Assembly: GCA_023382535.1 (NCBI GenBank) | Contig: JAHDWA010000096.1 | Location: 1-28,183, forward strand | DNA length: 28,183 bases | DNA from: Anaerolineae bacterium | GTDB taxonomy: Bacteria; Chloroflexota; Anaerolineae; 4572-78; J111 | Direction of reading: 5' to 3' | Shown: piece by piece, positions 4,179 through 13,290 of the stretch | Position numbering within the stretch: the first letter of the stretch is position 1 | Layout: each line of letters begins with the position of its first letter | The notes under the pieces: model-generated | Seen by the model: the letters and a program-made list of their open reading frames with translations, nothing else | The model's database searches: none | Told to the model about the DNA's origin: nothing | Made by a program: the position numbers and the translations under genes

Positions 4179-4204
4179 CCGATTATTCATTAACAAGATT
4201 CAGT

Positions 4205-4440
<236 letters not shown>

Positions 4441-7570: not shown

Positions 7571-7598
7571 GGTACAGACCCGTCTGTTCTACCTTTTT
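7571..7598 (+). terminator. Weak candidate terminator after cbiO
   Basis: GGTA and CAGAC pair with GTCTG and TACC, with a 3-base bulge and a tiny loop, followed by TTTTT. The T-run overlaps the -35 box of the next promoter. The stem is imperfect, so this is only a candidate. Confidence 0.35.
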
Positions 7599-7625
7599 GA
7601 CAAGCAAAGGGAAGTTGGATATACT
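7597..7625 (+). promoter_or_regulatory. Near-consensus promoter of the cys-met block
   Basis: TTGACA at 7597-7602 and TATACT at 7620-7625 are separated by exactly 17 bases. Transcription would begin near 7632, leaving a leader of about 265 bases before cysK. That leader contains the Cys-rich reading frame and a terminator. Confidence 0.8.
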
Positions 7626-7691
7626 CCCCTAACCGATTTACTGCTCTACAGGCCGAATTCAATGTTTCAGTTAATTTTCTTTAAATTCAAC

Positions 7692-7739
7692 ATGTGTTGT
7701 TGCTCCTGTCTGTCGCGGAGGTGGTGGACTCCTCTTTAG
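7692..7739 (+). CDS. Cysteine-rich leader peptide of a putative attenuator
   Basis: A 15-codon frame, MCCCSCLSRRWWTPL, has four Cys codons in five and lies in the leader of cysK-cysE. An in-frame ATG at 7662 would lengthen it to 25 residues (MFQLIFFKFN added), with a weak ACAGG upstream. Neither start has a strong ribosome-binding site. Codons 9-12 (CGG AGG TGG TGG) sit in an RNA segment that can pair with 7766-7779. Such Cys-rich leaders are known in front of cysteine genes in mycobacteria. A similar sensing role here is inferred from position and composition. Confidence 0.65.
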   Translation: MCCCSCLSRRWWTPL

Positions 7740-7800
7740 TGCAGGAACAACCTGCGCATCAATGCCCACCACACTCCGCTTAATTAACGGTTGGGTGGGC
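7715..7800 (+). promoter_or_regulatory. Mutually exclusive leader stems (attenuator segments 1, 2 and 3)
   Basis: Segment 1 (7715-7727, inside the leader frame) can form 13 pairs with segment 2 (7766-7779, one bulged A at 7773). Segment 2 (7764-7770, GCCCACC) can instead pair with segment 3 (7794-7800, GGTGGGC). Segment 3 can also pair over five bases with CCACC at 7831-7835 in the terminator's 5' arm. This overlap of alternatives is the geometry of a translation-coupled attenuator. Confidence 0.6.
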
Positions 7801-7823
7801 TAAATTGCTTCATTTTGATGCTT

Positions 7824-7867
7824 AACAGCGCCACCGGGCCATTTACCAGTGACGCTGTTTTATTTTT
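7824..7867 (+). terminator. Intrinsic terminator in the cysK leader
   Basis: AACAGCG (7824-7830) pairs exactly with CGCTGTT (7852-7858). Inner CAC/GTG and GG/CC pairs extend the stem with two mismatches, and the run TTTTATTTTT follows. It lies 30 bases before the cysK start and after the Cys-rich leader frame, so it can only be regulatory. Confidence 0.78.
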
Positions 7868-7897
7868 CAAAATCAGAAGGGATCAAGCAAGGAAACT

Positions 7898-8830
7898 ATG
7901 AAAATCGCAAATGACGTAACTGAATTAGTGGGTAATACCCCCCTGGTGCGGATTCGTAAACTGACCGCCGGCGCCGTGGCCGATGTTGTCGCCAAGCTGG
8001 AATTTTACAATCCAGCCCACAGCGTTAAAGATCGGATTGGCCTCTCGATGATCGAAGCGGCTGAGAAGGCTGGCCTGATTAAGCCGGATACCATCATTCT
8101 GGAGCCAACCAGCGGCAACACCGGGATTGGGCTGGCTTTTGTCTGCGCGGCGCGGGGCTACAAATGTACCCTGGTCATGCCGGAGACAATGAGTAAAGAG
8201 CGGCGCGCCCTGCTGCGCGCCTACGGGGCCGAATTGGTGCTGACCCCCGGCAGCGAGGGCATGGGCGGCGCCATTCGCACCGCCGAAGAGATGGCCGCCG
8301 CCGACTCGCGCTATTTTATTCCACAGCAGTTCAAAAATCCGGCTAACCCTGAAATCCATCGAAAAACTACTGCCGAAGAAATCTGGCGCGACACCGACGG
8401 CAAAGTGGATATTTTGGTGTCGGGTATTGGTACAGGCGGGACTATTACCGGCGTGGGTGAAGTCATCAAAGCACGCAAGCCGTCGTTTCAGGCCATTGCG
8501 GTCGAACCGGAAGCTTCGCCGGTCCTGTCGGGCGGGCAAAAGGGACCGCATCCCATTCAGGGAATTGGGGCAGGCTTTGTGCCAGATGTGCTCAATACCG
8601 AAATTTACGACGAGGTCATCCGGGTGAAGAATGAGGATGCCTTTGATACAGCCCGGCGGATGGCTCGCGAAGAAGGTTTACTGGTTGGGATTTCTTCCGG
8701 CGCAGCCACCTGGGCGGCTGTTCAAGTAGCCCGCCGGCCCGAAAACGAGGGCAAGCTCATTGTGGTCATTATTCCCTCTTTCGGCGAGCGTTATCTGAGC
8801 ACGGCTTTGTTTGCCGGTCTGGCCGATTGA
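7898..8830 (+). CDS. cysK: Cysteine synthase (O-acetylserine sulfhydrylase)
   Basis: 310 residues, the usual length. The enzyme makes L-cysteine from O-acetylserine and sulfide using pyridoxal phosphate. The PLP lysine is Lys44 in [11 protein letters not shown]. The substrate loop [11 protein letters not shown], the glycine-rich phosphate loop [13 protein letters not shown] and the C-terminal [11 protein letters not shown] are all intact. ATG 7898 follows AAGGA. It is the first gene after the leader and is followed by cysE, which makes its substrate. The protein is more likely a cysteine synthase than a cystathionine beta-synthase, because it has no CBS extension. Confidence 0.95.
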
Positions 8831-8837
8831 ACACGGT

Positions 8838-8894
8838 CCCTCTCCCCAAGAGAGGGTGAAACGAACCCCAAACCCTCTCTATGCCGGGGAGAGG
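8838..8894. repeat. CCCTCTCC-type filler hairpins between cysK and cysE
   Basis: Two small inverted repeats lie side by side: CCCTCT with AGAGGG (8838-8856) and CCTCTC with GAGAGG (8874-8894). The sequence is a low-complexity filler. The strong ribosome-binding site AGGAGGT of cysE follows directly at 8896. Confidence 0.55.
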
Positions 8895-8910
8895 CAGGAG
8901 GTAAGGTAAG

Positions 8911-9615
8911 ATGTTTAAGACCATTAGCAACGATATTCAATCTGTCTTTGACCGCGATCCGGCGGCGCGGACCTGGCTGGAAGTGCTGCTGTGCTATCCG
9001 GGCCTGCATGCCATCTGGGGGCACCGGCTAACCCACTGGCTCTGGGTGCACGGGGCTAAACTGCTGGCTCGCTGGCTGTCGCAAATTATGCGCAGCCTGA
9101 CCGGCATCGAAATCCATCCAGGGGCCACGCTTGGTCCGCGCTTCTTCATTGATCACGGCATGGGCGTTGTCATTGGCGAAACGGCTGAAATTGGGGCTGA
9201 TGTCACCCTGTATCATGGCGTTACCCTGGGCGGCACCAGTTGGCAAAAGGGCAAGCGCCACCCGACCCTGGGAAATGGGGTAGTTGTCGGCGCAGGGGCT
9301 AAAATTTTGGGGCCGATTATGGTTGGCGATAACAGCCGGATTGGGGCTAATGCGGTCGTGGTCAAGCCGGTGCCGCCGGATTCTGTCGTGGTCGGGGTGC
9401 CGGGTGAAATTGTCAAGCGCAGCAGGCCGCGCCCGGTGACGGCGCGAGCCGATTTGGACCACGGCGCACTGCCGGATGTCATTGGCGACTCGCTGGTCGC
9501 GTTGATGGCTCGTGTAGAACAGTTGGAAGCTCATTTAAGCAATGGTCATGGCTTGAAACCTGCACCCTATACGTCCGATCGTGGGGTGTGGGTAGGCGAG
9601 GATTTTTCCATTTAA
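8911..9615 (+). CDS. cysE: Serine O-acetyltransferase
   Basis: 234 residues. It transfers acetyl from acetyl-CoA to serine, giving the CysK substrate. An N-terminal helical part ([19 protein letters not shown]) is followed by left-handed beta-helix hexapeptide repeats from about residue 65: [40 protein letters not shown], and [10 protein letters not shown]. The catalytic His pair is visible in FIDHGMG and LYHGVTLGG. The start has a perfect AGGAGGT eight bases upstream. The extra C-terminal 50 residues are not conserved in the short epsF-like class. It probably forms the cysteine synthase complex with the CysK next door. Confidence 0.94.
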
Positions 9616-9623
9616 AACCTTGA

Positions 9624-11006
<1,383 letters not shown>

Positions 11007-11026
11007 GCGCCAAGTGAAAGCCATAG

Positions 11027-11055
11027 TTGTCTTATGGCGAGTTAAGTTGCATAAT
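11027..11055 (+). promoter_or_regulatory. Weak candidate promoter before metX
   Basis: TTGTCT (11027-11032) and CATAAT (11050-11055) are 17 bases apart. Each matches four or five consensus positions. It would allow metX-metW to be expressed apart from cysK-metY. Confidence 0.3.
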
Positions 11056-11068
11056 ACAACGTAATGCC

Positions 11069-11124
11069 TAAAACGTAATGGTTCTAGCTGAAATTGGCGA
11101 ATACAGGTGAACCATTACGTTTTA
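11069..11124. repeat. Long perfect inverted repeat between metY and metX
   Basis: AAAACGTAATGGTT (11070-11083) pairs perfectly with AACCATTACGTTTT (11110-11123), with one more pair on each side. The loop is about 24 bases. AACGTAATG also occurs directly before it at 11059. It could be a terminator of the upstream unit, a mobile palindrome or an operator. Confidence 0.65.
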
Positions 11125-11158
11125 CATTTTATCTGTAGTTTGTTAGCGGGGTAAGAAA

Positions 11159-12358
11159 ATGGACTTAACTCATTCAGTTGGTTTGGTTGAACGTCAATAT
11201 TTTACTTTCGCCGAGAAAGAGCCGATGCGGCTGGACAGCGGTGAGACCCTCGGCCCGATTACCCTGGCTTACGAGACCTACGGCCGGCTCAACGACGACC
11301 GCAGCAACGCCATCCTCATTCTGCATGCCCTCTCGGGCGACGCTCATGCCGCCGGCTACCATTCGTTCAAAAATCCTAAAGCAGGCTGGTGGGATGATTG
11401 TATTGGGCCGGGCAAGGCTTTTGATACCGACAAGTACTTCATTATTTGCTCCAATGTGATTGGCGGCTGCCAGGGTTCCACCGGCCCCAGTTCGCTGAAT
11501 CCGGTTACGGGCAAACCCTATGGCTTGAGTTTCCCGGTAGTCACCATCGGCGATATGGTCCGCGCCCAGCGCTACCTGATTGATTACTTGGGTATTGAGA
11601 AGCTGCTGGCCGTGGCCGGGGGCAGCATGGGCGGCATGCAGGTGTTACAGTGGGCGGTCAGCTACCCGGGGCGAATCCGGGCCGCGCTGCCGCTGGCCAC
11701 AACTGCTCGCCATTCGCCTATGCTGATTGCCTTTAGCGAAGTGGGACGGCAGGCTATCTATGCTGACCCCCATTGGAACGGCGGCGACTACTACGATAAA
11801 GCCCGGCCTAATGCCGGCCTGGCGGTGGCGCGGATGGTCGGCCACATTACCTACTTGAGTGAAGAATCCATGCACCACAAGTTTGGCCGGCGGCTGCAAG
11901 AGCGCGAGCGTTTTGGCTACGATTTCACGACTGATTTTGCGATTGAGAGCTATCTTCGCTACAATGGCAACCGCTTCACCGAACGCTTCGACGCCAACAG
12001 CTACCTGTACGTGACCAAGGCAATGGATTATTTTGACCTGAGCAATGATTACGGCAGCTTAACCAACGCCTTTACCAGAAGTACCGACATCACTTATCTG
12101 GTCGTCTCCTTTACCTCGGATTGGCTCTATCCAACCTATCACTCCAAAGAGTTGGTCAGCGCCTTAACAGCGGTAGGAGCTGATGTTACCTATTGTAACC
12201 TTAAGTCAACCTGGGGCCACGATGCTTTTCTGTTAGAAGTTGAAACGATGACCAGCTTGATTGGCGACTTTCTGGAGCGGGTGACGCGGGAGTACAAAAT
12301 TCAACCGCCGGGGGAACCTGTAGCTAGCCCGGCGCCCGCTTTAGACTTTACGATCTAA
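11159..12358 (+). CDS. metX: Homoserine O-acetyltransferase
   Basis: 399 residues of the alpha/beta-hydrolase fold. It acetylates homoserine from acetyl-CoA, the first committed step to methionine, and feeds MetY. Landmarks are [24 protein letters not shown], the nucleophile Ser156 in [14 protein letters not shown], the acid Asp in [14 protein letters not shown], and the His in [12 protein letters not shown] 11159 is preceded by GCGGGG. The stop codon is directly followed by the metW start, the usual metX-metW arrangement, which supports methionine rather than haloalkane or serine roles. Confidence 0.95.
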
Positions 12359-13020: not shown

Positions 13021-13033
13021 CATACCATCAGTT

Positions 13034-13290
13034 TAATAACCGGTGAAGTTGCGTCCCTATTTGCCGCCAAATCTGACGCCTGGGGGAAGTCCGGTGCAAG
13101 TCCGGCGCTGTCCCGCAACGGTAAGCAATAATCAATAATCAATTGTCATTTGTTAATTGTCAATGAGAACAGATAAACATTGACTATTAATTGTTGACCA
13201 TTGACCATTGACAATTAGCAAGCCCGATTACCCAGCTTTACCTTTGCTTGTGTTCTACCTTCGTGGACAGGAGGCCGAGCGTGAAATAAT
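13034..13290 (+). promoter_or_regulatory. Cobalamin riboswitch 2 (upstream of the biosynthesis operon)
   Basis: The core GGTGCAAGTCCGGCGCTGTC, continuing CCGCAACGGTAA, lies at 13093-13124 and is nearly identical to riboswitch 1. A B12-box-like AGCCCGATTACCCAGC is at 13221-13236, and an ACCTTCGTGGACAGGAGG arm near 13257-13274 parallels that of riboswitch 1. The variable region (about 13127-13217) is filled by an AT-rich repeat hairpin. An intrinsic terminator follows. It should repress the whole cobalamin synthesis operon when cobalamin is plentiful. Confidence 0.92.
13127..13217. repeat. ATTGACCATTGAC-type repeat hairpin inside riboswitch 2
   Basis: Copies of ATAATCA, AATTGTCA and, in the other sense, TTGACCA and CATTGACAATT fill the segment. 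AATTGTCAATG near 13154 is the exact complement of CATTGACAATT near 13206. The element sits in the same peripheral position as the AATCGTAAAT element of riboswitch 1, but its sequence is different. Confidence 0.8.

Follow-up and report, generated by a model that had tools for sequence, protein, structure and literature searches.

The trp, his and leu attenuators of proteobacteria combine a leader peptide carrying codons for the product of the pathway with competing stems and an intrinsic terminator. In the Cysteine T-boxes of Firmicutes, termination of cys genes is controlled by charged tRNA-Cys, which is bound directly by the RNA with no leader peptide. The leader analysed here precedes the cysK-cysE genes in a 28,183-nucleotide stretch of DNA from an Anaerolineae bacterium (the window). 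It has the product-codon leader peptide, the competing stems and the intrinsic terminator in common with the trp, his and leu type. It differs from trp, where the stalled ribosome masks segment 1, in that a stalled ribosome would stand upstream and leave most or all of segment 1 free, so that the absence of translation should mean that the operon is on. As in the T-boxes, termination is predicted to be controlled via charged tRNA-Cys; T-boxes bind the tRNA without a leader peptide, whereas the window leader has one and matches no Rfam family.

Cysteine leader peptides were predicted in 2005 in Mycobacterium, P. acnes and B. longum (PMC1262725). Like the window, these species have leader frames with consecutive Cys codons, in their case ahead of cys or cbs genes. 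In the part of PMC1262725 that bears on them, they are without conserved hairpins that could be terminators and have their Cys codons near the stop codon, whereas the window has a covarying terminator and its Cys codons precede segment 1. In 2015, Cys-rich frames, one of them upstream of cysA2, were presented in a section of PMC4633059 as what would be the first bacterial cysteine-directed attenuation. Canestrari et al. 2020 is cited for translation attenuation in M. smegmatis in a passage of PMC13236596 and for regulatory Cys-rich sORFs in one of PMC9094748. As far as these passages go, the mycobacterial polycysteine leader ORFs resemble those of Chloroflexota in being Cys-rich frames before cysteine genes, and also before cysA2 (PMC4633059). 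They differ in being called leaderless (title of Canestrari et al. 2020) and in being described as translation attenuation, whereas the window has a promoter with a predicted 5' leader, mutually exclusive stems and a terminator. A passage of PMC3766115 states that in 2013 the amino-acid attenuators in Rfam covered four amino acids and may stem from gamma-proteobacteria. Neither a paper among those listed from the open-licence PMC literature nor an Rfam family was found for cysteine leader-peptide attenuation in Chloroflexi, an absence that is not proof. Leader-peptide attenuation as a kind and Cys-rich leaders in actinobacteria are known; new, as far as we found, are the lineage, the combination of cysteine and terminator, the reversed masking and the wide reach of the proposed regulon.

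Promoter and leader frame

A sigma-70-type promoter (7597..7625, + strand) was confirmed where the preliminary description had placed it, with a -35 box TTGACA at 7597-7602, a 17 nt spacer and a -10 box TATACT at 7620-7625, matching 11 of the 12 consensus bases. It is also present in the closest relative, L001 (Anaerolineales bacterium H5_CFX7, 97% CysK identity to the window). Eight of the nine leaders of the window's form have an 11/12 promoter with a 17 nt spacer, and L089 has none in the stretch scanned. From the position of the promoter, transcription probably starts near 7632. This is about 30 nt before ATG 7662, which bears on the idea of a mycobacterial-type leaderless frame at the 5' end of the transcript.

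The Cys-run frame ATGTGTTGTTGCTCCTGT...TAG occupies 7692-7739, as previously noted; however, the start of translation probably lies 30 nt earlier than was assumed, at the in-frame ATG 7662. The resulting 25 aa frame MFQLIFFKFNMCCCSCLSRRWWTPL (7662..7739, + strand) is more likely than the alternative start at 7692, because L001 and L089 also have an in-frame ATG ahead of the second one, at a distance of 10 and 9 codons respectively, and because inspection by eye showed no good -35 box that would serve a leaderless start at ATG 7692. Neither start is preceded by a strong Shine-Dalgarno sequence (by eye).

The putative regulatory codons Cys-Cys-Cys-Ser-Cys (TGT TGT TGC TCC TGT; 7695..7709, + strand) have their Cys codons conserved in relatives. 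This 15-base run occurs once in the window, and none of 100 shuffles contains one. As in trp-type transcription attenuators, codons for the product of the pathway are clustered in a short leader frame that is predicted to be translated.

Alternative stems and terminator

Segment 1 (7715..7727, + strand) lies within the leader frame and pairs with 7766-7779 in a stem of 13 pairs with one bulge, exactly as the preliminary description had it; three of these pairs are changed on both sides among nine sequences. Segment 2 (7764..7779, + strand) is the alternative partner of segment 1 or segment 3, and segment 3 (7788..7801, + strand), defined by the window folds, is the partner of segment 2 or of the terminator 5' arm. 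Stem 2:3 was found at the place described but is longer, with 12 pairs (7764-7778 with 7788-7800). The pairing of segment 3 with the terminator arm likewise has 12 pairs in the window (7789-7801 with 7827-7840) instead of the five proposed, and it is not conserved in all relatives. A small hairpin (7741..7755, + strand) directly follows the leader stop codon, with 91% of cells paired in nine sequences and no two-sided change; its role is possibly that of a pause hairpin.

The intrinsic terminator (7824..7867, + strand; stem 7824-7859, U-tract 7860-7867) was also verified, about 30 bases before the cysK ATG at 7898, and four of its pairs show two-sided changes. It stands between the leader frame and the first gene, as in trp-type attenuators. 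A simple terminator scan with loops of at most 8 bases did not list it, probably because of its internal mismatches. The fold of the leader (7632-7900) is better than those of all 200 shuffles (z -3.3), and the duplex energies are -27.1 kcal/mol for 1:2, -20.9 for 2:3, -20.1 for segment 3 with the arm and -16.2 for the terminator.

When the window leader was searched against Rfam at gathering score and at E <=1, with the T-box model included, no match was found in 7580-7900, and in 20 related loci the sole match at gathering score was one tRNA. For the families in Rfam, a known riboswitch or T-box acting before cysK is therefore extremely improbable, even with two cobalamin riboswitches in the same window.

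Folding with a ribosome on the leader

We consider it very probable, from the modelled folds and the conservation described below, that the leader is a ribosome-mediated transcription attenuator sensing charged tRNA-Cys. At low cysteine, the ribosome would come to a halt at the Cys codons (7695-7709). Segment 1, which lies further downstream, would be left free and would pair with segment 2; segment 3 would then be free to pair with the terminator 5' arm, and RNA polymerase would continue into cysK-cysE. With ample cysteine, the ribosome would arrive at the stop codon (7737) and cover segment 1, upon which 2:3 would pair, the terminator would form and the operon would be off. Segment 1 would be masked by the arriving and not by the stalled ribosome, unlike in trp, and an untranslated leader should consequently be on.

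For the folds, the first base left free by the ribosome was assumed to lie 13 nt downstream of the first position of the A-site codon. In the truncated transcript, the minimum-energy fold at edges 7708-7720 (all four Cys codons) consists of 1:2 and the pairing of segment 3 with the terminator arm, and from edge 7726 onward it consists of 2:3, with the terminator 7824-7859 left free. Segment 1 is free at the first three Cys codons; at the fourth, 7715-7719 is lost and the antiterminator state still forms. With this assumed 13 nt edge, the masking of segment 1 by a stalled ribosome that characterises trp was not observed, and the leader would thus represent a modified trp scheme. Minimum-energy folds of the full leader contain the terminator at edges 7720 (fourth Cys codon) and 7750 (stop); those made without a ribosome (7662) and at edge 7708 (first Cys codon) do not.

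With the ribosome at the first Cys codon, the terminator 5' arm is sequestered with a probability of 0.59; the value is 0.53 for the last Cys codon and 0.18 for the stop, and the drop from first codon to stop was matched by none of 30 shuffles. Terminator pairing at equilibrium starts from 0.41 at the first Cys codon and has reached 0.83 by the last, which is the value at the stop. The truncated window folds switch with the position of the ribosome as had been proposed, from 1:2 plus antiterminator at the Cys codons to 2:3 at the stop. The choice between mutually exclusive antiterminator and terminator by ribosome position was seen in the window and only partly in relatives.

Conservation in nine leaders of the same form

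Eight relatives carry the same leader form as the window (alignment A2, n=9), and L001 retains the promoter, Cys codons, stems and terminator. In this alignment, 93.7% of cells are paired, compared with 34-61% in controls with slid partners, and 15 cells show two-sided changes against a shuffled mean of 4.8, a value reached by none of 500 shuffles. The two-sided changes comprise three pairs of stem 1:2 and four pairs of the terminator. RNAalifold, given the alignment alone, predicts 1:2, the small hairpin and the terminator. Stem 2:3 is formed in all nine leaders with the ribosome at the stop, and its pairing ranks at or above position 8 of 300 shuffles in all nine. Conservation in close relatives had been named beforehand as a point on which the reading could fail; both the Cys codons and the stems are conserved, and 1:2 and the terminator covary.

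How well segment 3 pairs with the terminator arm varies more among the nine. The rank of this pairing among 300 shuffles is 5 in the window and in L097, 14 in L001, 22 in L089, 26 in L102 and 39 in L114, and 73-101, no better than chance, in L116, L117 and L140. When the ribosome was placed at the first Cys codon, full-length minimum-energy folds contained 1:2 in six of the nine leaders and 2:3 in L097, L116 and L117; the terminator was lost only in the window and L001 and kept in the other seven. In L001, of nearly identical sequence, arm sequestration hardly changes in cut transcripts (0.60 to 0.56); this leader does change in the equilibrium terminator test and in the full-length minimum-energy folds. 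The modelled switch is sharp in the window and less clear in several relatives, and relatives without the predicted folds may have either a kinetic choice, another antiterminator or a failure of the model. The absence of 1:2 from the predicted ON state of three relatives slightly reduces our confidence in the mechanism, which is still high.

The cysteine-attenuator reading of the preliminary description was largely right, given the switching folds in the window and the conserved Cys codons and stems, with the response to cysteine predicted from these. From the sequence, its conservation, the covariation of 1:2 and the terminator, and the mutually exclusive folds of the window, we infer the transcription start, the translation of the leader, the stalling and the response to cysteine.

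Cys leader frames before cysK across Chloroflexota

A total of 87 of 109 Chloroflexota cysK loci were scored, 22 being dropped for having no M.IA-like start or less than 300 nt upstream; the division between Chloroflexota and 50 other loci was made from record titles and search group. A CxC (or CCxC) leader frame was found within 350 nt of cysK in 62 of the 87 loci. In the same loci, 20 shuffles gave a mean of 11.6 and a maximum of 18, and the opposite strand gave 8. Corresponding frames for nine other amino acids that are encoded by one or two codons (F, Y, H, Q, N, K, D, E and W) showed no comparable excess, and the 50 loci titled otherwise had a CxC frame in 4 cases against 3.5 expected from shuffles. 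A promoter-like site with at least 10/12 bases precedes 36 of the 62 leader frames, and on the other strand 4 of 62.

No CxC frame was found within 350 nt in the remaining 25 of the 87 loci, which would agree with a constitutive terminator accompanied by a chance Cys-rich frame without any regulation, as would the fact that regulation itself is deduced. The enrichment, the strand specificity, the covariation and the gene association argue against this explanation, which we regard as very improbable.

In 38 of the 61 leaders scored (of 62), the 32 nt after the last Cys codon have a downstream complement that ranks fifth or better against 100 shuffles; the window ranked 8. At loci with several frames, preference was given to a higher number of Cys and to an Arg or Gly after them. 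In the equilibrium test, 50 leaders were scored (8 of 62 have no hairpin with a U-tract), and terminator pairing from the first Cys codon to the stop rose by more than 0.2 in 7 and fell as much in 2. At equilibrium the terminator is usually predicted to win whatever the ribosome position. Since no fold is more stable than the finished terminator, this test was of limited information for the majority of leaders, and a second test was made with transcripts cut before the terminator 3' arm. Among the 47 of 62 leaders scored in this way, 20 moved by more than 0.2 as predicted and 6 in the opposite direction, with a mean of 0.19 against 0.05 for shuffles.

The commonest form has the peptide C-x-C-x-[RG]-R-G, and its Arg-Gly codons GGCGGGG constitute segment 1. 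The partner of this segment, CCCCGC, often lies in the 5' side of the terminator, so that 1:2 would itself be the antiterminator. In other forms (e.g. L151 and L162), the terminator arm finds its partner directly in the end of the frame, and sequestration drops by 0.42 and 0.79, respectively. We read these as several structural forms with one logic, in which a ribosome finishing the frame would cover segment 1; the form predicted for the window has one extra step, segment 3.

Some further structures were seen by eye. In L034 and L115, an inner hairpin with its own U-tract is surrounded by a long outer stem (with GCAGCCAAC or ACAGCCAGCAG on one side), and the two may be nested terminators; L017, of the commonest form, also shows an inner hairpin. 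L023, L094, L100, L124 and L150 share a block like CGATGAGTCGCGCCGGTTGAGCG, complementary to a AGACTCATCG-like stretch of the terminator arm, which by eye may be read as a further antiterminator form.

The last Cys codon

Among the 62 cysK leaders, which were chosen by peptide only, 59 have TGT as their last Cys codon. TGT likewise stands at this place in all 85 matches (of 89) to the covariance model of the commonest form (R2, see below) that have both Cys codons in place, a count that is not independent since the model was trained on such leaders. The Cys codons of the downstream genes are TGC in 66 and TGT in 10 cases (n=76). The TGT bias at this position exceeds what a simple counting of codons would require.

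This bias (59/62 and 85/85 against 10/76 downstream) and the many leaders with only two Cys codons would fit arrest of the ribosome by a Cys-rich nascent peptide that responds to a thiol, a metal or the redox state, with charged tRNA-Cys not being the signal. Nevertheless, the position between the Cys residues is occupied by various amino acids (S, I, M, L, V, R, T and others), and the conserved Arg-Gly codons sit in segment 1, where they pair with segment 2 and so need not be peptide signals. We consider such nascent-peptide sensing unlikely.

The cysK-cysE operon and the rest of the window

The leader is followed on the + strand by cysK (cysteine synthase A, 7898..8830; NCBIfam TIGR01139, 476.5 bits, cut-off 351), cysE (serine O-acetyltransferase, 8911..9615; NCBIfam TIGR01172, 258.1 bits, cut-off 211) and a metY-like O-acetylhomoserine/O-acetylserine sulfhydrylase gene (9711..11006). 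The last was scored on 9720-11006 with the subfamily model TIGR01326 (668.9 bits, cut-off 495) and its protein does not reach the cut-off of either of the two equivalog models that score best. The metX gene was named by NCBIfam above the NF001209 cut-off. In 39 of the 47 relatives listed, cysE lies on the same strand 16-330 nt after cysK, and six others are short fetched stretches. No terminator-like site was listed on the coding strand of 8780-11250 by the simple scan (loops <=8 bases), which also misses the leader terminator; cysK, cysE and metY may therefore be on one transcript.

The start of metY appears by eye to be ATG 9711 rather than TTG 9633 of the mechanical frame. The cysE-metY gap contains a strong hairpin at 9629-9663 (CCTCTTGTGCC...GGCACAAGAGG, by eye) without a U-tract. 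In the metY-metX gap, a stem AACGTAATGGTTC/GAACCATTACGTT was seen by eye at 11060-11129; its loop is large and its tail T-rich, and a second copy of CGTAATG just upstream could compete for the stem; this element is possibly a second attenuator or a plain terminator.

Cobalamin riboswitches (Rfam RF00174) at 4190-4403 and 13029-13254 lie on either side of the cys-met genes. Downstream of the first is cbiM (Pfam PF01891), and the second is followed by CbiX, CbiD, CbiG and other cobalamin biosynthesis genes. Near the window edge, a transposase-like frame was found at 204-1556 on the - strand (Pfam DDE_Tnp_1_4, 34.9 bits, cut-off 34.7).

Covariance models and a probable sulfur regulon

The covariance model R2 was built from 19 cysK leaders of the commonest form. 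It matched 83 of the 396 genomes of the class at E <=0.01, 71 of them at E <=0.001. From 90 matches listed, 89 were classified, a second nearby match in one genome (G019) being left uncounted, and 4 of the 89 are training leaders. Downstream genes were assigned by tblastn to eight reference proteins and then by Pfam. When DUF4395 was counted, 86 of the 89 matches preceded cysteine or sulfur genes. By tblastn these were 43 cysM-like, 14 cysK, 11 rhodanese-type sulfurtransferase, 7 metY and 2 DUF4395 genes, and by Pfam 7 sulfite reductase and 2 sulfur transport genes. The cysA2 gene of mycobacteria presumably encodes a sulfurtransferase too. The two 'cysM-like' genes scanned score best against cysteine synthase B models, below the cut-offs, and one DUF4395 gene (L200) lies directly before cysK on the same contig. 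For L211, L232 and L264 the gene is 600-1015 nt downstream of the match, and for 3 of the 89 (L269, with Bmp, L282 and L287) no sulfur gene was recognised by tblastn, or by Pfam for L269 only.

As controls, R2 matched 3 of 195 genomes in the Massilia family (best E 0.0035) and 1 of 198 genomes in the phylum of the Acidimicrobiaceae-titled genome (L288, E 0.002). None of these four matches reached E <=0.001.

A U-tract was found between the R2 element and the gene in 68 of 75 matches scored, and in 13 on the opposite strand. This bears on translation attenuation as in mycobacteria, in which the Cys leader would control exposure of the cysK ribosome-binding site and not termination. The cysteine genes of M. 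smegmatis are described in this way in a passage of PMC13236596, and a few pairs do reach about 7888 in the fold of 7632-7900. However, the named alternative stems of the window end at 7859, 39 nt before cysK, the terminator covaries, and the U-tract before the gene is widespread; translation attenuation is thus quite unlikely, and we continue to read the leaders as transcription attenuators.

The window's own form, modelled as R1, gave 14 matches in 12 of the 396 genomes; 8 of the matches, in 7 genomes, are the training cysK leaders. Among the non-training matches, L192, L193 and L195 precede sulfurtransferase-like genes and L196 a peptidase gene; L194 is without a CxC frame and L198 runs off its contig. 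Apart from one match at E 1.4, R1 recovers just the cysK leader from the genomes of L001 and L089.

The preliminary description, confined to cysK-cysE, had missed the spread of such leaders, which occur class-wide before sulfur genes. On balance we favour a class-wide cysteine regulon in Chloroflexota, with terminator-based attenuators of several forms over cysK-cysE, cysM, sulfurtransferases, metY, sulfite reductase and sulfur transport. In this regulon, the coding stretch after the Cys codons would be half of the antiterminator system, a finished leader would mean off and the untranslated default on, and the final UGU, fixed against codon bias, would be part of the sensor.

Conclusions

A cysteine attenuator with a full set of stems would provide cysteine control for a class that is known largely from metagenomes. 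The leaders constitute a candidate new RNA family to annotate, and with it a reversed-masking form of attenuation that is open to test.
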